The notes under the pieces: model-generated
What the model was told of the DNA's origin: nothing
The model's database searches: none
The model's input: only the letters and a program-made list of their open reading frames with translations
Position numbers and translations under genes: made by a program
Assembly (NCBI RefSeq): GCF_001040845.1
Contig: NZ_CP011941.1
Location: 887,744-951,743 of the forward strand
Length of the DNA stretch: 64,000 nt
From: Synechococcus sp. WH 8020
GTDB lineage: Bacteria > Cyanobacteriota > Cyanobacteriia > PCC-6307 > Cyanobiaceae
Reading direction: 5' to 3'
Part shown: positions 762 to 15,028 of the stretch, in pieces
Numbering within the stretch: the stretch's first letter is position 1
Layout: each line of letters opens with the position of its first letter

Positions 762-1598
762 TCAAATGGGTTCAAGCTTGGAACGTGTTCGGCTATTAAG
801 TAACATCGCAAGCAAAAACCCTAGAAACTGAACCATCACGACTGAAGGCCCTGAAGGAAGATTTGACAAGCCTGAAAACAAAAGTCCTAGCAATGCGCAC
901 CCACCACCAATGACAGATGAGATGATCACATAAATAGGAAAACTTCGACTAAGCAATCGACCTGCACAAGCAGGAATCACAACAAAAGCTGAAATCAACA
1001 AAACACCTACGGCTTTAATTGATATTGCAACAACAACAGCCAAAAGAATGATAAATGCCAAACCATGCCAACGCGTCCGAACTCCCATCGCACCCGCTAA
1101 GTCTTGATTAAGAGTAAGCAACACCTGTGCCCGCATACTAAGGCCAAGATAGATAACACTTGCAAGCAGAAAACCGGCAATAACAATAACATCAAGCCGA
1201 CTTATTCCGAGGATATCCCCGAACAAAAGCTGTTGAATTCCTCCTCGATAGGTTTCTACACGGCTAAGCATCAAGATTGCTATTGCAAGTGAACTTGAAT
1301 AAACAATGTTGAGCAGCGCATCCGTGGGAAGAGCGCTGCGCTCAACCAACTGACTAACAAGCAGTGCGAACAGAACAGCAAAAGGAATCAAAACAAGGGT
1401 GGGATTCACCCCGAGCAAAATGCCTAAGGTGATTCCTAACAGGGATGAATGGCCTAAAGCATCGCTGAAAAAAGACAGCTGCCTCAGAACAGCAAAGCTG
1501 CCAAGTACACCGCCAAGGGCTCCGGTGAGCATGCCGCCAAGTAAGGCGCGTTGCATGAACGGCTCAGACAGGAGGCTTAAAAAATCTGCTTCAGCCAT
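762..1598 (-). CDS. znuB: Zinc ABC transporter permease (ABC-3 family)
   Basis: A 278-residue, very hydrophobic protein with about eight membrane segments and the ABC-3 family pattern (GGMLTGALGGVLGSFAVLR near the N-terminus, DALGHSSLLG shortly after, ISIKAVGVLLISA in the second half). Proteins of this family form the inner-membrane channel for Zn2+ or Mn2+ uptake. Its start overlaps the end of the ATPase gene by 8 bp, so the two are translationally coupled. Zinc rather than manganese is inferred from the His-rich loop of the binding protein and the Zur-like operator at the head of the gene set. Confidence 0.9.
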   Translation of the reverse strand: MAEADFLSLLSEPFMQRALLGGMLTGALGGVLGSFAVLRQLSFFSDALGHSSLLGITLGILLGVNPTLVLIPFAVLFALLVSQLVERSALPTDALLNIVYSSSLAIAILMLSRVETYRGGIQQLLFGDILGISRLDVIVIAGFLLASVIYLGLSMRAQVLLTLNQDLAGAMGVRTRWHGLAFIILLAVVVAISIKAVGVLLISAFVVIPACAGRLLSRSFPIYVIISSVIGGGCALLGLLFSGLSNLPSGPSVVMVQFLGFLLAMLLNSRTRSKLEPI

Positions 1599-2370
1599 GG
1601 GTCTGATGGCGCTGAGAGACCATGTTCAGTCCATAAAGCTCACCCACACGCTCCTCACTGAGGGTTGCCTCAGGACTACCACTGCAGCGCAGACTTCGGT
1701 TTAAGCACAGCACCTGATCGCTGCTTCGGCGGACCATCTCAAGATCGTGAGACACCTGCAAAACAGTCCAGCCTTCCTGACGACGTAGTTCCAGGAGTTG
1801 TTGTTGAAACTGCTCAATGGAATGAACATCTAAACCTGCTTGCGCTTCATCAAGCACGAGCAATCGACGAGGACGAACCAGGCAAAAAGCCAGCAACACC
1901 CGCTTCAACTGACCACCTGAAAGTTCAGTCAACAGGCGATGACGTAGATCACAGGTTTGAGTTCGCTCTAGGGCCGTCAACACGGCATCCTTTCTCTGCT
2001 TCCCTGATCTCCAGGGCAGGCGTGGCCCCGGCAAATCAAATCCGAACCCAACAAACTCAGAAACGGTGAGAGGCAATAAACCTTGAACCACAAGGTTTTG
2101 GGGTACATAGGCGATCTGCGCACGCACAGAACGCGGTAAACAACCATGCGCATCAAGGGGTTGACCCAACAACTCAACTCGACCAGATGCGTGAGGAAGC
2201 AGCCCTAACAAAGCAGAGACAAGAGTGCTCTTTCCTGCTCCATTAGGACCAACGAGGGCCGTGTCACTTTCTGCGGGAAGGGCGAAGGAAACGCCTTCTA
2301 CTGCCAAACGTCCACGACGTTCGACACTGAGATCATGAACCGTTAGGACTGCTTCTTTCACGCTCATCAC
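1591..2370 (-). CDS. znuC: Zinc ABC transporter ATP-binding protein
   Basis: A 259-residue ABC ATPase. Walker A GPNGAGKST is at residues 41-49, the Q-loop region VPQNLV at about 89-94, the signature LSGGQ at 150-154, and Walker B LLVLDE ends at 175. The post-Walker sequence is DEAQAGLD rather than the common DEPxxGxD, a small departure that should not affect catalysis. It would power import of zinc through the adjacent permease. Its start codon overlaps the last base of znuA and its end overlaps znuB, giving a tight znuA-znuC-znuB order. Confidence 0.9.
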   Translation of the reverse strand: MMSVKEAVLTVHDLSVERRGRLAVEGVSFALPAESDTALVGPNGAGKSTLVSALLGLLPHASGRVELLGQPLDAHGCLPRSVRAQIAYVPQNLVVQGLLPLTVSEFVGFGFDLPGPRLPWRSGKQRKDAVLTALERTQTCDLRHRLLTELSGGQLKRVLLAFCLVRPRRLLVLDEAQAGLDVHSIEQFQQQLLELRRQEGWTVLQVSHDLEMVRRSSDQVLCLNRSLRCSGSPEATLSEERVGELYGLNMVSQRHQTHG

Positions 2371-3341
2371 TAGCCGCCGAAGGCCTTGATGAGGGAGGCG
2401 ACGTTGCTCTTCATCACTTTAAAGTAAGTGTCGGGTTGTTTCGACGCTTCTTCCGAACCAGTCTCCAATGGGTCAAAGGTCACGACGTTGACACCAAGAT
2501 CCTCTGCTACGGCGTTAAAAGAGCGATCACCTTCCTGGGGTTCACTTAGCAGAGCCTTGAGTTGGGTCTGCTCCACTCTGTTGGACACGCGTTGGAGATC
2601 CGCGGGAGTGGGGTTCATCTCGGGAACGTCAACGACAAACTCAGCTTTGAGGTCATAACGCTCTGCGAAATAGGGTGCGAAGTCATGGAAGGCGATGAAG
2701 GTCTTACCACTGAAAGGCTTGAGCTGAGTGGCAAAGGTTGTATTCAACTCCTTCAGCTGATCGCTGTATGCAGACGCCCGTTGGGTATAGCCGTCAGCAC
2801 AATCTGGATCAGCCTTGACCAAACCGTCACGGATGTTTTCGACCTGTTGGACAGCGCGGAGTGGATCCAACCAAATGTGGGGATTAACCTCACCATGATC
2901 GTGATCATGGTCATGGTCGTGGTCACCACCCTCATCCTCATCCGACTCAATCACAGCAACACCGCGACTGGTGTCAATCACCTGAAGCGAGTCGTTTTCG
3001 GCTGAATCGGTCAGCTTGTCGAGGAAATATTCCATACCCAAACCATTCTTAACCAAGACTGAAGCCTTACTCAGGGCAGCAATGTCAGAAGGAGTGGCCT
3101 GAAAATCGTGAGGGCCAAGGTTGGGTGGAATCAGGGCCGTGACAGTCGCACACTCACCGGCGACCGCTTCCGTAAACAGAGTGATTGGCAAAAACGTTGT
3201 AACAACGTTTAGCTTTGATTGATCGCTCTTAGGATGTGTTTTTTGTGCAGTGCCACAGGAGACAAGAGCCGCCATAAGCAGCAGAGTTCCTGAAACAGAC
3301 CAGAGAGATTTAGGACGAAGGCTTGAGGGTAACCAAGACAT
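2370..3341 (-). CDS. znuA: Zinc-binding lipoprotein of the ABC transporter
   Basis: A 323-residue cluster A-I (ZnuA/TroA) binding protein. The N-terminus has a lipoprotein signal with the lipobox ending LVSC (Cys29). Metal-ligand positions typical of the family are visible at His78 (GPHDF), His155 (NPHIW) and the His of FIAFHDF. Between the first two lies an acidic, His-rich loop (EDEGGD followed by HD repeats, residues 134-150), a feature of zinc rather than manganese binding proteins. The gene lies 37 bp downstream of the porin stop on the same strand with no visible terminator between them, so the porin and znuACB probably form one operon. Confidence 0.92.
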   Translation of the reverse strand: MSWLPSSLRPKSLWSVSGTLLLMAALVSCGTAQKTHPKSDQSKLNVVTTFLPITLFTEAVAGECATVTALIPPNLGPHDFQATPSDIAALSKASVLVKNGLGMEYFLDKLTDSAENDSLQVIDTSRGVAVIESDEDEGGDHDHDHDHDHGEVNPHIWLDPLRAVQQVENIRDGLVKADPDCADGYTQRASAYSDQLKELNTTFATQLKPFSGKTFIAFHDFAPYFAERYDLKAEFVVDVPEMNPTPADLQRVSNRVEQTQLKALLSEPQEGDRSFNAVAEDLGVNVVTFDPLETGSEEASKQPDTYFKVMKSNVASLIKAFGG

Positions 3342-3378: not shown

Positions 3379-4956
3379 TTAAAAGTTAAAGGTTGTTTTC
3401 ACCAATCCACCGAGCTGACTCAAAGTATCATCGCCACCATTTAGATCAGTATTCTGACCTTCAGGACGACTCAAATAGAACAATGCGGGTGTAACACTAA
3501 TGTTGTCGGTAACCTGGAATTGATACCACCATTCCCAGACGTAATTACCATCTGCAGGAACTTCATCACCCTTCAAATCTGTTGCGAAAACAGGCTGTCC
3601 GACAGCCATACCTGCATTGTTACCCTTCAAGAAAACGTCACTCCATTCCAGGCCAACATTCCATGACTGACTTGCCCTGACATCTCCATCATTCTTAGCG
3701 TAGAGAGAGTTGTAACCATAACCTGCAGAGATCGATGGTATCCAACCACTGTCTTGTGGCTGCCAAGAACCACCAATGCCCCAAGCATTCATAAAGGCTT
3801 TACGGCCAGAGAAGTAATTATCGGCAGCAAAGGTAGTGCCGAATCCACCGAGCAATTCAGATGGGCTTTGAACGCCCGACCAAATAGCGGCGATATTCCA
3901 GTTTTCTGATTCAAACGCAAGTTGTACAGTTCCTGAAGCTTCAGAAAATTCTGTTCCTATGCCACCAGCATTAGGGTCTGAATTAGAGCCTTGTGCAGCA
4001 ACATAATTCGCAGAGACACTGAAACCGTTGTCAGTAGCCCAACTAACACCAGCTCCTGCACCCAGGTTTTTGTTGTAAGCAGCTGGTGCACCATTCAGCG
4101 TGGTTACATCCAAAATGGGGTCGCTTGGATATGCACTAGGCCAAACGGCAAGCATGTCTTCCTGACCAACACGAGCACCTAGCGTGAAAGTCAGTGAGTT
4201 ACCGACAGGGAACTGATAAAAGAGTTTGTCAATAACTACAGAATTAGCACCAGGATCCTCCTGAAATGCTGTTTCTAACGTTGACAAGCCGTTTGGATTG
4301 CCACCGAATACAGAGTTATCACCAAAATTGCCTGACCTCAAGACTGTCAACAGCAAATCCTTGCCAGTGAAACTGGTTTCAAGGCTTAACTGAAGGTCGT
4401 AGTTAAAGGTAGTGGCACCAAAATCTCTATTTGCTGGATCGGCTTTTGATTTGGTTCCGGAAAAATTATTTGCACCAACAACAAACGTTGCCAATCCAGA
4501 AAGCTTGGTGGTGGTGGAGAACTGAGTGGCTTCCAGTTCGCCAACGCGAGCTTCCAAACCGTCAACACGGCCCTTGAGGATGGCGAGTTCCTTTTCGAAC
4601 TCCTTCATCAGGCGCTGGAGCTCGTCGGTCACTTCAGTGACGCGGTCGAGACAGGCGTTCAACAGAGCAGCCGCTTCAAAGCGGGTCATCGCACGGTTAC
4701 CGCGGTAGGTGCCGTTGGGGTAACCGGCCACACAGCCGTAGCGCTCGATCAGGTTGCTCAGAGCCTGATAAGCCCAGTCGGTTGGGTAAACGTCGGAAAA
4801 CTGAGTGATGCTGGTGACTTGCTCGCGGCTGCTCAATGCAGAGGTGTCGGCGTAGTCAGACACACCATTGATGTTGAGCTCAGTGGCGTTTGCAGTTACT
4901 GGCGCCAACAGGCCCAAGGCAGCTGGGGCCACCAGCAGTTGATGGAAAAGTTTCAA
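3379..4956 (-). CDS. SOM-type porin with SLH domain, head of the zinc-import operon
   Basis: A picocyanobacterial outer-membrane porin: signal peptide, one SLH domain at about residues 50-110 (DVYPTDWAYQALSNLIERYG, then RFEAAALLNACLDR), a coiled-coil spacer (about 115-145), and an OprB-like beta-barrel to the terminal Phe (KTTFNF), the usual outer-membrane assembly signal. I choose TTG at 4956 because GAGG sits 6 nt upstream and the result, (M)-K-L-F-H-Q-L-L-V-A-P, matches how this family normally begins; a GTG at 4968 has no such site. A Zur-like box lies 32 bp upstream and znuA follows after 37 bp. This suggests a porin dedicated to metal entry; substrate is inference. Confidence 0.88.
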   Translation of the reverse strand: MKLFHQLLVAPAALGLLAPVTANATELNINGVSDYADTSALSSREQVTSITQFSDVYPTDWAYQALSNLIERYGCVAGYPNGTYRGNRAMTRFEAAALLNACLDRVTEVTDELQRLMKEFEKELAILKGRVDGLEARVGELEATQFSTTTKLSGLATFVVGANNFSGTKSKADPANRDFGATTFNYDLQLSLETSFTGKDLLLTVLRSGNFGDNSVFGGNPNGLSTLETAFQEDPGANSVVIDKLFYQFPVGNSLTFTLGARVGQEDMLAVWPSAYPSDPILDVTTLNGAPAAYNKNLGAGAGVSWATDNGFSVSANYVAAQGSNSDPNAGGIGTEFSEASGTVQLAFESENWNIAAIWSGVQSPSELLGGFGTTFAADNYFSGRKAFMNAWGIGGSWQPQDSGWIPSISAGYGYNSLYAKNDGDVRASQSWNVGLEWSDVFLKGNNAGMAVGQPVFATDLKGDEVPADGNYVWEWWYQFQVTDNISVTPALFYLSRPEGQNTDLNGGDDTLSQLGGLVKTTFNF

Positions 4957-4987
4957 AATGGGCCTCACACGAAAAGGCGCATGAAAA

Positions 4988-5002
4988 TGCTAATCATTCT
5001 CA
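4988..5002. promoter_or_regulatory. Zur-like operator before porin-znuACB
   Basis: TGCTAAT-C-ATTCTCA is a 7-1-7 near-palindrome closely matching the cyanobacterial Zur box TGATAATNATTATCA. It sits just upstream of the porin start, where repressor binding would block transcription of the porin and the downstream znu genes. A Fur site is the main alternative, since Fur boxes share the core. Confidence 0.7.
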
Positions 5003-5319: not shown

Positions 5320-6327
5320 ATGAAACAACGAACAAAATTGGCATCAATATTGATGGCAGCAGGCTTGTCGGCAACGATCACGAGTGCCTGTACGTCACAA
5401 TCGCAGGCTGTGCCAACAGATCAAGATGTCAGCAGGGCTTTAGTCGATGATGTGGTTTTACCTAGTTATAAAGAATTAGTGGGTAGAACAGAAAGGCTTA
5501 ATCAGGCACTCCAAGCTCTGGTCAATAATCCAAACCCTATCAATCTTAAAAAAGCTCGTGATGAGTGGAAACAGGCGCGTGATACTTGGGAAACAACAGA
5601 AACTTAGGCTTATGGCCCTGCTGAAACAGAAAATTTCAACCCTAATCTTGATGACTGGCCAGTCAGTGATAAGGAATTAGCAGAGGCTCTTTCTGAAAAA
5701 AATTTCACACAAGAAAATTTTGATGCTCTAGATACAACAGGAAAAGGTTTTCACGGGATTGAATATGTAATATTCGGAGACGGAGATGATTCTATTGAGG
5801 CATCTGATTTAACGACTCAGCAGCTGGCTTATTTAAGGAATGCTGGTAATAACTTAGAATCAAATGCTAAAGAACTTTTGGCTGCATGGAGTGGGCCAGG
5901 AGGATTTGGTAAGGCTGATGTTGAAGCATATCCTGCCAAAACAGTGAATGACATCCTTGAAGGGATGGCAGGATGTCTTGATGAAGTAGGAAACACTAAA
6001 TTTGGGGAAGCACTGGCTAGCGGAAAGGGGGAATTGGAAAGTACATTTAGTGGAAACACTGGTGCTGATGTTTTGTCAAACTTACAAGGAGTTCAACTGG
6101 CCTGGAAAAAATCGAAAATGCAGGACTATGCCAAAGCTAAGGATCCTGAGTTGAGCAATCAGTTGACAGCAGAATTGAAGGCGGCGCTCGAACAGGCGAA
6201 GGAACTACCAACGCGTCTGAATGACAAGCTTGATGATGGTGCGACCAAAGAGCAAGTTCAGAAACTGATGAAAGCAATTTCGCAAGCATTTAATACGACT
6301 GAGGCTTTGAAGGCAAAGATTGGATGA
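5320..6327 (+). pseudogene. Imelysin-like (M75) periplasmic protein interrupted by one in-frame TAG
   Basis: The frame from ATG 5320 encodes a lipoprotein-like leader (ITSACTS, Cys24) and the start of an imelysin domain, then meets TAG at 5605-5607. The same frame is open on both sides: from 5608 it runs without a stop to TGA at 6327. The imelysin metal motif GxHxxE (G-F-H-G-I-E, 5746-5763) and the rest of the domain are present. Around the stop the reading is WETTET-stop-AYGPAE, where relatives have W-E-x-x-E followed by aromatic residues and GP. A single TGG to TAG change would explain it. Imelysin-like proteins are iron- or metal-linked surface or periplasmic proteins, often next to di-haem oxidoreductases, as here. 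Recent nonsense mutation, readthrough and sequencing error all remain possible; reinitiation might give a C-terminal fragment. Confidence 0.82.
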
Positions 6328-9210: not shown

Positions 9211-9225
9211 TGATAATCATTCTCA
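9211..9225. promoter_or_regulatory. Zur-like operator before the COG0523-WD40 pair
   Basis: TGATAAT-C-ATTCTCA is a 7-1-7 palindrome with one imperfect pair and is the best match in the window to the cyanobacterial Zur consensus. It lies 41 bp before the GTG start of the GTPase gene, a normal position for a repressor site overlapping the promoter or transcription start. Confidence 0.78.
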
Positions 9226-9266
9226 CAGCTCGAGCTTAGTCGCTCTAATATGTAGATATAATTTTT

Positions 9267-10643
9267 GTGTTAAAAGTGAATCAAAAAGTACCTGTTACTA
9301 TTCTAACTGGATTTTTAGGTTCGGGAAAGACAACCTTACTGAACAAAATTCTGAGCGAGGAGCACGGTAAAAGAATCGCTGTGATCGAAAATGAATACGG
9401 TGAAGTTGGTATTGATCAAGGCCTTGTGATCAATGCTGATGAAGAGGTATTTGAAATGTCAAATGGGTGCATATGTTGCACCGTGAGAGGAGATTTGATT
9501 CGAGTCTTAGGAAACCTAATGAAAAGACGAGATAAATTTGATTATGTCCTTGTAGAAACTACTGGCCTTGCTGATCCTGGCCCTGTAGCCCAGACATTTT
9601 TTATGGACGACGAAATACGCGATGAATTTTCATTGGACGGAATCGTAACACTAGTCGATGCAGCCCATATTCAACAACAGCTTGGTCGCAGTGGAGAAAG
9701 TTCAGAACAAGTTGCTTTTGCAGATGTACTTGTTCTAAATAAGACGGATTTAGTGAGCGATAAAGATCTCAATGATCTTGAATCGCGTCTTCGAGAGATG
9801 AATAGAATGGCACGTATTGTAAGAAGTAAAGAAGCCAATGTACCTGTTGAGACTGTCTTAAACCTAAGCGCTTTTGATTTGGATCAAGTGTTAGCACGAC
9901 GTCCAACCTTCCTTGAGCCAGAGTATCCATTTGAATGGACAGGCGTATTTGATCTTGAGAAAGGCAGTTATGAATTAAGCCTCGAGGAAGGCCCCGACCC
10001 AACAATGTCAATCATTGTGCGTCTTAATCAGGGAATAGATGAGAATTCATTGAAATTAGGTGCTGAACAATGTGTAAGATTATATGCTCACCCACCGATT
10101 GATTTGGAGCCAAATCAATCAATTCCAATCGGTGAGCATGTCAATTTATTATTGAAACAAAAAGGACAAAAGAGATTTCAATTAGACCTGCTAGAATCAT
10201 GCCAAGTTGGATTATTTACTCAGCATACTGCTGAAGAATTTGATATCAAGCTCAAGAAATTCTCATCCACTGGTCAATCGAATTCCAATGACAATCCGGA
10301 TATTCCAACAAACGTCGAACGAATTTGGGTAGCCGAACATGAGCATGACGACGAAGTCGGATCCATCGCTATTGAACGTACTGGAAATGTTGATCCTGAA
10401 AAGCTAAATCAATGGATGGGCAAGCTGCTTGCAGAGAAAGGTGTTGATATTTTTAGAACGAAAGGGTTTATTAGCTATGAAGGAGAAACTCGACGGATTG
10501 TTTTCCAAGGCGTTCACATGCTGTTCACCGCTCAAGCCGACCGAGAATGGGGAGATGAGCCTCGACATAATCAACTCGTTTTTATTGGTCGAAACCTTGA
10601 TGAAGTTGCCATGCGTGAGGGTTTTGATCAGTGTCTGATTTAA
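9267..10643 (+). CDS. COG0523 (CobW-like) GTPase, candidate zinc metallochaperone
   Basis: A 458-residue G3E-family GTPase. Walker A GFLGSGKTT is at residues 15-23, the family metal-site motif C-I-C-C at 68-71, the Switch II region VETTGLADPGPV at 95-106, and the NKTD guanine motif at 157-160. A C-terminal CobW_C domain is present (about 360-455, ending RNLDEVAMREGFDQCLI). It is longer than the usual 320-400 residues, with an extra region at about 200-340. COG0523 proteins deliver or allocate metals, and those with upstream Zur boxes act in zinc starvation. The start is GTG 9267; a second GTG at 9276 would shorten it by three residues. It overlaps the WD40 gene, implying coupled translation. 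Confidence 0.88.
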   Translation: MLKVNQKVPVTILTGFLGSGKTTLLNKILSEEHGKRIAVIENEYGEVGIDQGLVINADEEVFEMSNGCICCTVRGDLIRVLGNLMKRRDKFDYVLVETTGLADPGPVAQTFFMDDEIRDEFSLDGIVTLVDAAHIQQQLGRSGESSEQVAFADVLVLNKTDLVSDKDLNDLESRLREMNRMARIVRSKEANVPVETVLNLSAFDLDQVLARRPTFLEPEYPFEWTGVFDLEKGSYELSLEEGPDPTMSIIVRLNQGIDENSLKLGAEQCVRLYAHPPIDLEPNQSIPIGEHVNLLLKQKGQKRFQLDLLESCQVGLFTQHTAEEFDIKLKKFSSTGQSNSNDNPDIPTNVERIWVAEHEHDDEVGSIAIERTGNVDPEKLNQWMGKLLAEKGVDIFRTKGFISYEGETRRIVFQGVHMLFTAQADREWGDEPRHNQLVFIGRNLDEVAMREGFDQCLI

Positions 10644-11701
10644 ATGTTTATAAACCTCAAGGCATGCTCCACGAAGGTTGGACTGCTGTGGTTGATGACT
10701 ACGCCATGTTTTGCGCTTGGATTCACAATGGTGAATCCTTGCTCGTAGCAGATGTTTGTGGAGGTTTATATTCATTTGATGGTCTAACTGGCGAAATAAA
10801 TTGGCAGAAGAAGAATACTCACGAGGGTGGTTTATTGACCATGGCCATTCACCCCAGTAATAATCTATTTGCAACAGCTGGACAAAATGGATCCATTATG
10901 ATCTGGGACAGTAAAACCTACCGTGTCTTAAGTACTATTGAACTCGGTCGTGGTTGGGTTGAACATCTCAAGTGGTCGCCAGATGGTAAGTCTTTAGCAG
11001 TAGCAATGTCTAGGTATGCATATGTTTTTGATCATCATGGAAAAAAGATTTGGCAATCAACCGAGCACAACAGCACTGTAAGTGCTATCTCTTGGTCATC
11101 TTCCAAAGAATTAGCGACAGCGAGCTATGGCGGAGTCATTTTTTTCGACATAGCGAATGATGTTGTTAATCAAAATTTTGAATGGAAGGGTTCACTCGTC
11201 TCCATGGTGCTGAGTCCTGATGGAGATATAGTTGCTTGTGGAAGTCAGGATAAATCTGTTCATTTTTGGAGAAGGTCAACGGAGCTTGATGCAGAAATGA
11301 CAGGATATCCTTGCAAGCCAAGTCAATTAGCATTTGATCAGTCAGGCAGATTTCTTGCAACTGGAGGAAGTGAGCAAATCACCGTTTGGAATTTTCAGGG
11401 TGAAGGTCCTGAAGGTACTGCACCTGGACAATTACTTTTGCATGTAGAACCTGTTTCTAGCTTGAATTTTGCAAACAATAGTCTTCTTTTAGCCTCAGGT
11501 TCCCGAGATGGCTCACTCCTCGTCTGGTTTTTGGATGATTACGGGGACGGTCACCCATTAGGAGGCGTTTATGTTGGTGACAGAATCAGCGATATTGCAT
11601 GGAAACCGAATGACCAAGCAATTGCTACGGTCAATGCAAGTGGTGGTATTAATGTTTATACATTCAAACTTCGTGAGTCTCCTTCTCTGAACAGTGATTA
11701 G
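10631..11701 (+). CDS. WD40-repeat protein coupled to the COG0523 GTPase
   Basis: A 356-residue beta-propeller protein with repeated GH/WD-type units, for example HPSNNLFATAGQNGSIMIWD, LSPDGDIVACGSQDKSVHFW and ANNSLLLASGSRDGSLLVW. The count is consistent with a single seven-bladed propeller, and there is no signal peptide or extra catalytic domain. The GTG start at 10631 lies inside the last codons of the GTPase gene (13-bp overlap), so both are under the upstream Zur-like box. A scaffold that presents client proteins to the metallochaperone is my inference; no biochemical role is visible in the sequence. Confidence 0.85.
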   Translation: MSDLNVYKPQGMLHEGWTAVVDDYAMFCAWIHNGESLLVADVCGGLYSFDGLTGEINWQKKNTHEGGLLTMAIHPSNNLFATAGQNGSIMIWDSKTYRVLSTIELGRGWVEHLKWSPDGKSLAVAMSRYAYVFDHHGKKIWQSTEHNSTVSAISWSSSKELATASYGGVIFFDIANDVVNQNFEWKGSLVSMVLSPDGDIVACGSQDKSVHFWRRSTELDAEMTGYPCKPSQLAFDQSGRFLATGGSEQITVWNFQGEGPEGTAPGQLLLHVEPVSSLNFANNSLLLASGSRDGSLLVWFLDDYGDGHPLGGVYVGDRISDIAWKPNDQAIATVNASGGINVYTFKLRESPSLNSD

Positions 11702-12753: not shown

Positions 12754-13449
12754 CTAACCGCTTGGCTGAAGGGAAGAGTGGTGATGGGAAATTTTCCATT
12801 CTCCATCTTCAATCATGTAGATAAAACTATAGCGAGCTTCTGCCGTTGTTCCATCCTCAAAGTTAAAGCTATAAAGCCCGGCATCCTGAAGCATATTGCA
12901 ACCGATAATAATCTCACGCTGATCGATGGAACCTTTAGGACTTTTCTCTAGAAAATGTTTGAAATAATCGACAATTGTGTCATGATCTGTTCGTGGTAAG
13001 TCAGAGAGTGTAGGGAGCAATATTGCATCACGGCTATATAAGTTTGCAACTTGTTCAGGGTCTTTGGTTTGCAATGCTGCATTCCATTTCTCAAAAAGTT
13101 GTTGCACCTCATTTTGAGAGATGAGGGCACATCCGCTGACACCATCTTTGCGCAATTCACCGCATTGACGATCTAGCAATTCCAGATTGAGCCAAATCAA
13201 ACTATTTCTCGGTAACAGCGAGCTGTAGGACAGACAACTGGGACGGTCCCGCGGGCCCAGACGCCATCGATACTGCTGACCGACGGAACCACCTAACAGT
13301 TCCGATTCAATCCAATGAGGCAGCTTGCCTTGCCCGACAGCCATTGAAAAAATCTGACGCCCCGTGGTGAGCCTCTCGTTCAAATCGGTTGCCTGCATGG
13401 AGACCGTCAATACCGTTTTGGAACCAGAGGAGGCGGTGGAGTGCATCAT
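12754..13449 (-). CDS. FKBP-like domain fused to a DUF4440/SnoaL-like domain
   Basis: The open frame begins at 13635, but a Zur-like operator lies at 13496-13510 inside it, so the real start is probably ATG 13449 (or the adjacent 13446), with GGAGAG about 14 nt upstream. The resulting 231 residues have an N-terminal part resembling an FKBP/SlyD peptidyl-prolyl isomerase (RQIFSMAVGQGKLPHWIE, then LLGGSVGQQYRWRLGP). The C-terminal half is a DUF4440/CaMKII-association-like domain (QQLFEKWNAALQTKDPEQV to WKISHHHSSLQP). The first domain is recognised by pattern only. The gene leads directly into yidD. Function in zinc starvation is unknown. Confidence 0.72.
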   Translation of the reverse strand: MMHSTASSGSKTVLTVSMQATDLNERLTTGRQIFSMAVGQGKLPHWIESELLGGSVGQQYRWRLGPRDRPSCLSYSSLLPRNSLIWLNLELLDRQCGELRKDGVSGCALISQNEVQQLFEKWNAALQTKDPEQVANLYSRDAILLPTLSDLPRTDHDTIVDYFKHFLEKSPKGSIDQREIIIGCNMLQDAGLYSFNFEDGTTAEARYSFIYMIEDGEWKISHHHSSLQPSG

Positions 13450-13495
13450 CAGCTGTTCGAGTCTCTCCTCGTGGTGGCTTTGCGTAAAGATTACA

Positions 13496-13510
13496 TGAGA
13501 ATGATTATCG
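13496..13510. promoter_or_regulatory. Zur-like operator before the FKBP-like/DUF4440 gene
   Basis: TGAGAAT-G-ATTATCG fits the 7-1-7 Zur pattern. It overlaps a longer near-palindrome centred at 13506 (GAGAATGAT-T-ATCGTTCTC, 13497-13515, one mismatched pair). It lies 46 bp before ATG 13449 on the minus strand and within the longer open frame, which argues against the upstream start. Confidence 0.65.
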
Positions 13511-13515
13511 TTCTC

Positions 13516-13982
13516 CACGTAAACCGCTGGATGGCAGGTCTCAGAGCGACCAGACCTCTGAAGTCCAATCAAGGCACAGAGGATCAATGCTTCATCGCAG
13601 CCTGCACGAGACATCAACCGGCCAGCGAGGAACAAAGCACAACGCGGAAGATTGGAGGTCTACGGCTTCATGCAGCATGTTTTGATCTTGAGAGAGCTCT
13701 TATTAACCTTTAACGAAAACACTTATCGTTGAATCATCTCTTGACTTCAAAATTACAACCTATCCCATCAGCAGTAACAACGAATCCTCTGAAGCCAAGC
13801 AAAAGATATTCACTATCATGACATTAACCGTCCGATTGAAACATTAAAAATGCTTCTCTAGATTGATTATTCCTATCCATAGAAAGATAATGACTAGCGT
13901 TCGCTCAGCCATGAGAATCTTCTGAAGCGAGAAGCTTGTAACGAACAACCAACAGGTTGGCCGTCTACCTGCCAAGATGGAA
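13516..13982. other. Intergenic region between two divergent Zur-box genes
   Basis: This holds the upstream remainder of the minus-strand open frame (translated only if the 13635 start is real), then about 350 bp with no gene. It separates two divergent genes that each carry their own operator near the start codon. No other motif was recognised. Confidence 0.45.
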
Positions 13983-13997
13983 TGAGAATCATTCTCG
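13983..13997. promoter_or_regulatory. Zur-like operator before the His-rich COG0523 gene
   Basis: TGAGAAT-C-ATTCTCG is a 7-1-7 palindrome that pairs at all but the outermost base. It ends 2 bp before ATG 14000 and contains most of the alternative ATG at 13982. A site this close to translation implies that the transcription start lies near or inside the box. Confidence 0.72.
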
Positions 13998-13999
13998 CA

Positions 14000-15028
14000 A
14001 TGACGAGCTCCACGGCGTCTCAAGTGCCAGTCACCATCCTCAGTGGGTTTCTTGGTGCTGGAAAGACCACGCTGCTGAACCACATTCTCAGCAATCAAGT
14101 GGGGGTGAAAACTGCAGTACTGGTCAACGAATTTGGCGAAATCGGAATTGATCATGATCTGATCGTTTCGACCAACGACGACATGGTGGAATTGAGCAAT
14201 GGCTGCATCTGCTGCTCAATTAACGATGAGCTGAAAGAGGCTGTGGAGAGAATTCTGAACAGACCAGAGCAAATGGATTACATCGTGGTCGAAACCACCG
14301 GACTCGCGGACCCTCTCCCGGTGGCAATGACATTCGGGGCCACAGAGTTACGTGACGCCACTCGTCTCGATTCGATCATTACTTTAATCGATGCTGAGAA
14401 TTTCAATGATGAAATACTCCACACGCAGATAGGCAGAGCACAGGTGATTTACGGCGACATCTTGTTGCTCAACAAAACAGATCTCGTCTCCAAAGAACGT
14501 CTTGAAGAGGTGGAACAGAAGCTGCGTGATATTAAGACTGATGCCCGAATCATGCACTCCATTCAAGGTGAAGTGCCCCTGGCTCTGCTACTGAGTGTGG
14601 GCTTATTTGAGTCTGACAAGATCGTCAATCAGAGCGACCACAGCCATCACGACCACGGCCATCACGATCACGATCACGACCATCACGGCCACAGCCATCA
14701 CGATCACGGCCATCACCACGAGCACCATCAAGCAATCGAGGGTTTCACCTCCCTGTCGTTTGAAAGCGACGGACCTTTTTCATTGCGCAAGTTTCAGAAT
14801 TTTCTTGATAACCAGTTACCCAAGGAGATCTTTCGTTCGAAAGGAATTCTCTGGTTCCAGGAGAGTGAACGTCGTCATGTGTTCCACTTAACTGGGAAGC
14901 GCTTCTCTATCAATGACAGTGATTGGACTGGAGAACGCAAAAATCAGATTGTCATGATCGGACGTGACATCAATCACGACTCCTTGCGTCAGCAGCTTCA
15001 GAACTGCGTGGCCAGCACCAACTCCTGA
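14000..15028 (+). CDS. COG0523 (CobW-like) GTPase with a His/Asp metal linker
   Basis: A 342-residue G3E GTPase if read from ATG 14000; the alternative ATG at 13982 lies in the Zur-like box. Walker A GFLGAGKTT is at residues 16-24, C-I-C-C at 69-72, VETTGLADPLPV in Switch II, and NKTD follows. A linker at about residues 212-244 is almost entirely His with Asp, Gly and Ser, in HHDHGHHDHDH-type repeats, before a short CobW_C domain. This is the architecture of zinc-type COG0523 proteins, and the linker is a strong metal reservoir or sensor. It differs from the other COG0523 protein here, which is longer and lacks the linker, so the pair probably have separate clients. Confidence 0.9.
   Translation: MTSSTASQVPVTILSGFLGAGKTTLLNHILSNQVGVKTAVLVNEFGEIGIDHDLIVSTNDDMVELSNGCICCSINDELKEAVERILNRPEQMDYIVVETTGLADPLPVAMTFGATELRDATRLDSIITLIDAENFNDEILHTQIGRAQVIYGDILLLNKTDLVSKERLEEVEQKLRDIKTDARIMHSIQGEVPLALLLSVGLFESDKIVNQSDHSHHDHGHHDHDHDHHGHSHHDHGHHHEHHQAIEGFTSLSFESDGPFSLRKFQNFLDNQLPKEIFRSKGILWFQESERRHVFHLTGKRFSINDSDWTGERKNQIVMIGRDINHDSLRQQLQNCVASTNS

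Follow-up and report, generated by a model that had tools for sequence, protein, structure and literature searches.

Identification of a COG0523 GTPase gene overlapping a WD40 gene

The window, by which we mean the whole stretch of DNA analysed, comprises 64,000 nt of the Synechococcus sp. WH 8020 genome (NZ_CP011941.1, 887,744-951,743, forward strand). It contains a gene on the plus strand encoding a COG0523 GTPase of 458 amino acids (9267..10643, GTG start) and, immediately following it, a gene encoding a WD40 propeller protein of 356 amino acids (10631..11701, plus strand, GTG start). The two reading frames overlap by exactly 13 bp (10631..10643, plus strand), the TG of the WD40 start codon being borrowed from the codon of the conserved C-terminal Cys456 of the GTPase; these coordinates confirm the first-pass annotation, which had placed the WD40 start inside the last 13 bp of the GTPase gene.

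Pfam searches identified cobW (PF02492, E 1.4e-62, residues 9-185) and CobW_C (PF07683, E 3.4e-25, residues 365-457) in the GTPase. A Walker A motif, GFLGSGKT, was read from the sequence at residues 15-22 (9309..9332, plus strand); its residues G15, G18, G20, K21 and T22 were invariant in a 12-row alignment, as was a GCICC metal motif of the CxCC type at residues 67-71 (9465..9479, plus strand). Alignments also revealed an EHEHD motif at residues 357-361 (10335..10349, plus strand), located between an inserted domain described below and CobW_C, with H358 of the full-length protein invariant. Judged by its cobW and CobW_C domains and CxCC motif, the protein is a member of the COG0523/G3E P-loop GTPases. 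Its scores against NCBIfam equivalogs were all below the curated cut-offs (ZigA, 199.8 against 600; CobW, 209.9 against 332.1; PRK11537, 265.9 against 361), the nearest being PRK11537, which we take to be the YjiA model. Escherichia coli YjiA (PDB 1nij, 4ixm), itself a COG0523 GTPase, was the best match among solved structures (E 6.2e-63), but it is a protein of 318 amino acids without the insert. The structural model of the full-length GTPase was weak (pLDDT 75.5, pTM 0.54) and cannot place the insert on the GTPase. The WD40 protein matched PF00400 at E 1e-29 (102.1 bits against a gathering score of 27), and no signal peptide was seen when its N-terminus was read by eye.

Conservation of the gene pair

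Homologous loci were ranked with the GTPase-type insert as query, and the best 80 of 562 confirmed loci (56 from picocyanobacteria and 24 from other groups) were inspected, a selection in which ZnuA and other contexts of the domain are under-represented. A WD40 gene was located directly downstream of the insert-bearing GTPase gene in 79 of these 80 loci, the exception lying at a contig end. Conservation of the adjacency in cyanobacteria had been proposed as a check on the first-pass annotation; it proved strong, with a downstream WD40 gene in 32 of 33 insert-bearing cyanobacterial genomes, and it extended beyond cyanobacteria. The arrangement was also found in 36 of 40 fetched COG0523 relatives that have no insert (in one case at a distance of 1.7 kb), these being the matches ranked after genome G083, with G365 omitted from the same range; Leptolyngbya sp. 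BL0902 has one such insert-less pair. GTPases without a WD40 neighbour amounted to four of the 40 insert-less proteins and one insert-bearing protein. Direct reading downstream of insert-less GTPases replaced a count of the pair in 35 of 388 cyanobacterial genomes (WD40 at E<=1e-30), which was misleading because few candidates were scored in each genome and WD40 proteins abound in many of them.

Within the best 80 of the 562 loci, an overlap of precisely 13 bp was shared by 54 of 55 picocyanobacterial pairs and by 13 of 24 other insert-bearing pairs; the same overlap was present in 14 of 39 insert-less pairs. A wider overlap survey covered 92 insert-bearing pairs, 91 of them distinct (L065 is identical to L165), with no usable pair at L059, L093, L134, L163, L164, L169, L188, L194, L196 and L201. 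Among these, L059 has a WD40 gene by annotation, L093 also has one, L164 is a degenerate copy in which WD40 fragments remain, and at L188 a WD40 gene lies further downstream.

Genes for ZnuA or Zur were present in the fetched flanks of 57 of the best 80 of 562 loci, a count from which GTPase matches were excluded since the ZnuA query itself carries the insert domain. They accompanied 53 of the 56 picocyanobacterial loci and, with the queries used, only 4 of the 24 others, so that a zinc role is less secure outside the picocyanobacteria. Short flanks of the insert-less loci contained znu, zur or hemB genes in 13 of 40 cases, and the gene order COG0523-WD40-HemB-ZnuA-ZnuC-ZnuB was found in G250 and G264. 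The conserved adjacency, often near zinc-uptake genes in cyanobacteria, therefore fits a functional pair of GTPase and propeller, and the propeller may plausibly serve as a scaffold for the GTPase.

Rather than adapting the GTPase to its clients, the WD40 protein might regulate it, as a GAP- or GEF-like or an inhibitory partner. Propellers partner other GTPases, and the recurring overlap and frequent pairing would suit a stoichiometric regulatory subunit. The distances of GTPase and WD40 sequences were correlated as well (r 0.904 over 46 thinned pairs), but because the species effect is uncontrolled this correlation shows joint inheritance only. The WD40 protein has no visible sign of catalysis or of metal ligands, which argues against this role, and we consider it rather unlikely; a client adaptor is the function that we prefer for the WD40 protein.

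Zinc genes and palindromes around the pair

The pair is part of an island that includes a zinc ABC importer encoded on the minus strand by znuB (762-1598), znuC (1591-2370) and znuA (2370-3341), with a gene for an SLH/OprB porin upstream of znuA (3379..4968, minus strand). A second, His-rich COG0523 GTPase without an adjoining WD40 gene is encoded at 14000..15028 (plus strand), its likely start being the ATG at 14000.

A Fur/Zur-type 7-1-7 palindrome, TGATAATCATTCTCA, was identified at 9211..9225 (plus strand), 41 bp upstream of the start codon of the GTPase gene. It is the sole site in the window with 0 mismatches to TGATAATNATTNTCA and the sole site in the genome with 0 mismatches to the looser pattern TGANAATNATTNTCA, a perfect score that is partly by construction because both patterns were written with the site in view; with that reservation, it is the best Zur-like box of the window, as the first-pass annotation had stated. 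The clustering of sites depends less on the choice of pattern. The genome contained 12 sites with at most 1 mismatch, 4 of them within 9 kb here, compared with 2 per strand for a control pattern, and the window contained 32 matches with at most 3 mismatches against 17.4 +/- 5.8 in shuffled sequences, a number reached by 2 of 100 shuffles. A second palindrome (4988..5002, plus strand, 1 mismatch) separates the porin-znuACB unit from the imelysin gene, a third (13496..13510, minus strand, 1 mismatch) lies on the 5' side of a CaMKII_AD gene, and a fourth (13983..13997, plus strand, 1 mismatch to the looser pattern) ahead of the second COG0523 gene. Elsewhere in the genome, a box at 1123101 precedes a second ZnuA set, and one similar site, which could be Fur-type, precedes the gene of a BPD_transp_1-family ABC permease. 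The genome also encodes a Zur relative that is 51% identical to the Zur adjoining the pair in a Prochlorococcus-like genome.

Across 77 GTPase loci, with the window included, upstream boxes with at most 1, 2 and 3 mismatches were found at 2 (the window and L096), 9 and 48 loci, against 0.6, 4.9 and 28.8 expected, which is a weak excess among near-copies. The box of the window was rejected as a conserved landmark, given that only the window and L096 have it with at most 1 mismatch. Many Prochlorococcus-type loci contain a different palindrome-like stretch approximately 88-97 bp upstream of the GTPase.

The regulator acting at these palindromes is probably a member of the Fur family, with Zur favoured, although the sequence cannot separate Zur from Fur, the 7-1-7 type of palindrome being generic for the family. 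A response of the operon to iron through Fur would suit the iron-type neighbours, namely the porin and the imelysin (PF09375) and DHOR (di-haem oxidoreductase) genes located between the palindromes, as well as the site ahead of the BPD_transp_1 permease. However, znuABC and the porin stand behind the 4988 box, the second ZnuA set stands behind that at 1123101, and znu and zur genes adjoin the pair in picocyanobacterial relatives; we regard iron as an improbable signal and zinc as the preferred one.

An uncatalogued domain shared with ZnuA and archaeal proteins

The extended middle region noted in the first-pass annotation does exist, and corresponds to a compact beta-sandwich domain (AlphaFold pLDDT 91) inserted between the cobW and CobW_C matches at residues 219-331 (9921..10259, plus strand), with the motif [FW]EWxG...D...FTxHxxxEF. 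Searches with the insert returned no Pfam match up to E 10 (HMMER filters on) and no family match in NCBIfam (best E 0.1) or among PDB sequences (best E 0.41). Pfam, NCBIfam and the PDB thus contain no sequence family for the domain, and its novelty rests on literature searching in addition. No copy was confirmed in viral contigs, and fold searches, Foldseek among them, returned no match at E<=0.001 in the PDB or in viral models. The best structural match was 1o6u_E (Z 6.0, rmsd 3.4, 88 residues aligned), with near-tied rows below it, a comparison of the GOLD-type or jelly-roll kind. The copper protein CorA, at Z 4.1 among tied rows, was left out of account. These fold comparisons yielded no functional clue.

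Profile comparison with hhalign demonstrated homology of the insert both to a domain inserted in ZnuA (E 3e-20) and to the forms present in haloarchaea (E 1.6e-30). Homologues occur in the His-rich regions of ZnuA from Prochlorococcus and haloarchaea, where importers carry the domain once or twice per protein, in stand-alone haloarchaeal proteins that are lipoprotein-like and secreted-looking, and in one membrane-type protein of Alicyclobacillus. In these unrelated zinc proteins the domain usually adjoins histidine-rich stretches. Genome G083 encodes two relevant GTPases. One (L055) has kept the WD40 neighbour and has no insert, its position being occupied by a 12-His linker (linker His residues were checked in 39 insert-less pairs); the other (L163) is a second, insert-bearing copy with no WD40 gene in the 10 kb fetched downstream. 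L055 grouped with insert-bearing GTPases in the tree, of which loss of the insert is the simplest reading, while a single clade of all insert-bearing rows was not rejected (p-AU 0.435).

We tentatively suggest that the insert represents a portable type of metal-handling domain, placed in or next to His-bearing metal sites of otherwise unrelated proteins (COG0523 GTPases, ZnuA, secreted haloarchaeal lipoprotein-like proteins and a membrane-type protein) on either side of the membrane in bacteria and archaea. The Glu, Asp, His and Glu residues that are invariant in it may form a metal site that makes a loose His tail a controlled point of loading or hand-off. The first-pass annotation had instead taken the middle region of the GTPase to be the docking site of a WD40 scaffold, for which the near-universal WD40 neighbour of insert-bearing loci would speak. 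Pairing with WD40 is equally a feature of insert-less relatives, insert and WD40 are separated in G083, and the same domain is found in ZnuA and secreted-looking archaeal proteins; the docking role is therefore unsupported and we think it very doubtful. It is similarly hard to credit that the pair is a passenger, a horizontally acquired cassette held by linkage without physical interaction, as its low GC3 (0.31 and 0.33 against 0.54 for znuA, 0.59 for the second COG0523 gene and 0.47 for the porin gene), its absence, at the thresholds used, from all 8 further genomes of the genus and the grouping of picocyanobacterial copies with MAGs of Chloroflexota, Gemmatimonadota and Pseudomonadota might suggest, since the linkage holds in diverged loci with and without the insert and with the recurring 13-bp overlap.

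Discussion

The association of COG0523 GTPases with WD40 and znuABC genes is already known, and the uncatalogued insert domain is the element added here. In the portion of their text covered, Haas et al. (2009; PMC2770081) describe a COG0523 subfamily 5 whose prokaryotic members are found in gene clusters with WD40 and znuABC, in several cases behind Zur sites, and which includes most eukaryotic COG0523 proteins, the human ones among them. The pair of the window resembles this subfamily in its WD40 neighbour and nearby znuABC (762-3341), a likeness by gene neighbourhood; the same portion of that account has no mention of the inserted domain, the 13-bp overlap or the domain shared with ZnuA. 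Another zinc-linked beta-propeller, AztD, is often encoded near CobW-family genes and, in the part of the description covered (PMC6689063), has eight blades, is extracytoplasmic and itself binds zinc. A secretion signal and two conserved zinc sites characterise that propeller. The WD40 protein of the window differs from it in its classical WD40 repeats and in the lack of a signal peptide as judged by eye.

ZNG1/CBWD, the eukaryotic COG0523 zinc transferase, docks its client directly. Like the window GTPase it is a COG0523 GTPase thought to pass zinc to a client, a likeness by description only. In the CIA machinery, a P-loop NTPase carries the metal cofactor and the WD40 protein CIAO1/Cia1 targets apo-clients. 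The window pair is similar in outline, as a metal-cofactor P-loop NTPase with a WD40 protein; this is an analogy only, and the CIA machinery differs in handling Fe-S clusters, in its location in the eukaryotic cytosol and in using another NTPase family. CIAO1 is named in the part of PMC8469502 covered.

On balance we lean towards the view that the pair is a zinc-limitation unit, in which a COG0523 zinc metallochaperone with a portable insert for metal handling works with a WD40 protein as its client adaptor. Under zinc shortage the palindrome at 9211 would be vacated by a repressor of the Fur family, probably Zur, and GTPase and WD40 protein would then be made together as one unit, the overlap suggesting translational coupling. 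The GTPase may bind zinc at the GCICC and His motifs, and a GTP-dependent cycle would release it to an apo-enzyme. The WD40 propeller would be a cytosolic partner in contact with the GTPase, most likely as adaptor to the client or target. The insert takes the place of the His stretch of other COG0523 proteins, and probably loads or buffers metal rather than holding the WD40 protein.

COG0523 GTPases are thought to choose the recipients of scarce zinc, and the list of their known clients and partners is short. A WD40 protein so often encoded alongside, in an overlapping reading frame, would give a direct handle on client choice. The shared domain would be a second handle, as a compact module, open to testing, that the binding protein of an importer shares with a cytosolic metallochaperone, and it occurs in picocyanobacteria, which live at very low zinc.

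Organisation and conservation of the GTPase–WD40 gene pair

In the single-contig genome of Synechococcus sp. WH 8020 (2,661,066 bp), the gene for a COG0523 GTPase of 458 amino acids (9267–10643, forward strand) is followed by that for a WD40 protein of 356 amino acids (10631–11701, forward strand), both with GTG start codons. The two overlap by 13 bp, confirming the first-pass annotation, which had placed the WD40 start within the last 13 bp of the GTPase gene. Walker A and the GCICC motif are intact in the GTPase, and no Pfam match was found between its cobW (residues 9–185) and CobW_C (residues 365–457) domains, the interval that contains the insert (residues 219–331).

A search of 388 genomes of the class covered 64 from the strain's family (a hand count from the search listing); in 28 of these, an insert-bearing GTPase had an adjacent WD40 gene on the same strand. 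Five genomes of family f13 had an insert-bearing GTPase, with WD40 adjoining in four; in G083 the 10 kb fetched downstream of this GTPase (L163) contained no WD40 gene, and an insert-less copy elsewhere (L055) was accompanied by one. A scan of named genomes using the insert alignment as query confirmed 562 places, of which the best 80 were analysed. The insert was located in a COG0523 GTPase in all 80, with a WD40 gene downstream in 79 and the contig ending in the other (L134); ranking was by a GTPase-type query, and these 80 therefore carry little information on other contexts of the insert. They comprised 56 picocyanobacterial loci and 24 others, from Chloroflexota (8), Acidobacteriota (6), Pseudomonadota (3), Planctomycetota (2) and, with one each, another cyanobacterium, Altimarinota (Gracilibacteria), Bdellovibrionota, Poribacteria and Gemmatimonadota. 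Further pairs were present on plasmids of Paraburkholderia, Pantoea and Skermanella, that of Skermanella being insert-less. Among the 40 insert-less loci fetched (cyanobacterial, nearest to the WH 8020 GTPase), WD40 lay downstream in 36, including one at about 1.7 kb (L188), and none was found downstream in L169, L194, L196 and L201. The pair is conserved, and the adjacency looked for in cyanobacteria is borne out in both families and in the insert-less loci.

Within the best 80, the overlap measured exactly 13 bp in 54 of 55 pairs from picocyanobacteria and in 13 of 24 from other groups; when all loci were taken together, 81 of 92 insert-bearing pairs (91 of them distinct) showed this length. 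Insert-less pairs had it in 14 of 39 cases, with a 4-bp overlap in a further nine. The TG of the WD40 start codon derives from the codon of the conserved C-terminal cysteine of the GTPase. Such an arrangement would be expected if the two genes were translationally coupled.

GC3 values of the pair (0.31 and 0.33) were lower than those of znuA (0.54), the second COG0523 gene (0.59) and the porin gene (0.47). Neither pair nor domain was detected in eight other genomes of the genus at the thresholds used, and the picocyanobacterial copies shared a starred tree group with metagenome-assembled genomes of Chloroflexota, Gemmatimonadota and Pseudomonadota. Horizontal transfer, in either direction, is likely.

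A putative metal regulon and its genes

A Fur/Zur-type palindrome (9211–9225) ends 41 bp upstream of the GTPase start. No other site of the genome matches perfectly the pattern used, which was written with this site in view, and in that sense the description of it as the best Zur-like box of the window stands. Sites of the same type are located at 4988, between the porin-znuA-znuC-znuB unit and the imelysin gene, at 13496–13510, flanking a CaMKII_AD-domain gene on its 5′ side, and at 13983, upstream of a second, His-rich COG0523 gene. Outside the window, one lies immediately upstream of a second ZnuA gene and another separates a third COG0523 gene from a BPD_transp_1 permease; the remaining six sites in the genome were not assigned to metal genes. 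Because such sites adjoin metal genes both in the island and elsewhere, a predicted metal regulon is well supported. The genome encodes a 51%-identical relative of the Zur-type regulator adjoining the pair in a Prochlorococcus-like genome, as well as two weaker FUR-family matches, and the regulator is likely to be Zur rather than Fur. Many Prochlorococcus loci (for example, L100, L104 and L115) have a palindrome-like stretch around GATAACGGTTATC, about 88–97 bp upstream of the GTPase, which differs from the box in WH 8020.

Of the 56 picocyanobacterial loci among the best 80, 53 had ZnuA or Zur genes in the flanks fetched, versus only four of the 24 others; short flanks of 13 of 40 insert-less loci contained znu, zur or hemB genes. 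Two genomes (G250 and G264, loci L056 and L057) have a HemB (ALAD) gene within the cluster, in the order COG0523-WD40-HemB-ZnuA-ZnuC-ZnuB, which would fit a paralogue for zinc limitation.

The CaMKII_AD/SnoaL protein of the window (12754–13635, reverse strand; domain at about 12757–13125) matched PF08332 (E 4.9e-13) and PDB 3h51 (E 3.3e-27) and carries HHHSS near its end. We take it to resemble iota-class carbonic anhydrases, and it is possibly a zinc-sparing carbonic anhydrase. The imelysin-type gene (5320–6327, forward strand) has one in-frame stop (5605–5607) in an otherwise open frame, which points to either recent pseudogenization or a sequencing error; it is adjoined by a di-haem oxidoreductase gene (PF06537; 6381–7718, forward strand), also within the metal island.

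The insert domain of the GTPase

The insert was modelled by AlphaFold2 (26 sequences; pLDDT 91.1, pTM 0.83) as a compact domain, a predicted beta sandwich with one long helix. Pfam gave no match at a maximum E of 10, and the best hits in NCBIfam and among PDB sequences were only E 0.1 and E 0.41. Foldseek returned no match to the fold at E ≤ 0.001, and structural matches were middling and nearly tied (best Z 6.0, rmsd 3.4 over 88 residues). Residues E5, W6, G8, D26, L76, H102, E106 and F107 of the insert were invariant in the 26-row set and in a 16-row set including archaeal and plasmid rows.

The domain was found in 33 of the 388 cyanobacterial genomes, in a GTPase every time, and 23 of the 33 had a second domain-bearing frame of 447–873 codons; the five of these that were fetched (L048–L051 and L167) encode ZnuA. 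Besides GTPases, a BLAST search of the small set of fetched loci with the insert matched ZnuA genes close upstream of the pair in four Prochlorococcus-like genomes (best E 3e-8); these ZnuA proteins have 508–541 amino acids, with the domain within a His-rich loop, and the 387-residue ZnuA that occupies the corresponding position in L052 is without it. The number of inserted domains in Prochlorococcus-type ZnuA varies from none (L052) to one (L051) or two in tandem (L106 and G174). Two copies also share one frame in G078, a ZnuA-type tandem read from the frame only, and in G072 the second copy is decayed. Haloarchaeal plasmids encode the domain in ZnuA proteins of more than 500 amino acids and in three stand-alone proteins of 183–208 amino acids; as read by eye, these begin with a twin-arginine, lipobox-like segment and have the domain flanked by His-rich stretches. 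Profile comparisons linked the GTPase insert with the ZnuA insert (E 3e-20) and the haloarchaeal forms (E 1.6e-30), and the latter two with each other (E 2.5e-14). One stand-alone gene (L158:2875–3426) directly follows four genes for urease accessory proteins (ureG, ureD, ureE and ureF), which hints at a metal other than zinc in some cases. An Alicyclobacillus plasmid carries the domain in a 303-residue protein (L063:3788–4696) that, as read by eye, is of membrane type and has a His-bearing stretch beside the domain; its gene lies among metal transporter and regulator genes.

The suggestion that the middle region of the GTPase docks the WD40 protein was not supported: insert-less GTPases are paired with WD40 too, which speaks against such a role. 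A quick tree of 70 rows calls for two changes of the insert. The insert-less L055 falls within a starred group otherwise entirely insert-bearing, beside rows of its own family (SH-aLRT 93), so that the simplest reading is a loss of the insert with WD40 and the overlap of 13 bp retained; this loss is not proved, since a single clade of all insert-bearing rows was not rejected (p-AU 0.435). In place of the insert, the L055 linker has 12 histidines, versus two or three in 36 of 39 insert-less pairs, and the His motif beside the insert in GTPases is a short HEHD or HTHD, with no long stretch. Because it occupies the position of the His stretch in L055 and, in other proteins, is embedded in His-rich regions, the insert is more simply read as a putative metal-handling element.

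According to Haas et al. (2009; PMC2770081), prokaryotic genes of COG0523 subfamily 5 occur in clusters with WD40 genes and znuABC, and several stand behind Zur sites; this kind of pair was therefore already known. Neither the insert nor its occurrence in ZnuA is mentioned in the further passages and listings searched, which did not extend to one review of the family. With the GTPase–WD40 pairing itself already known, the uncatalogued domain is the part worth following.
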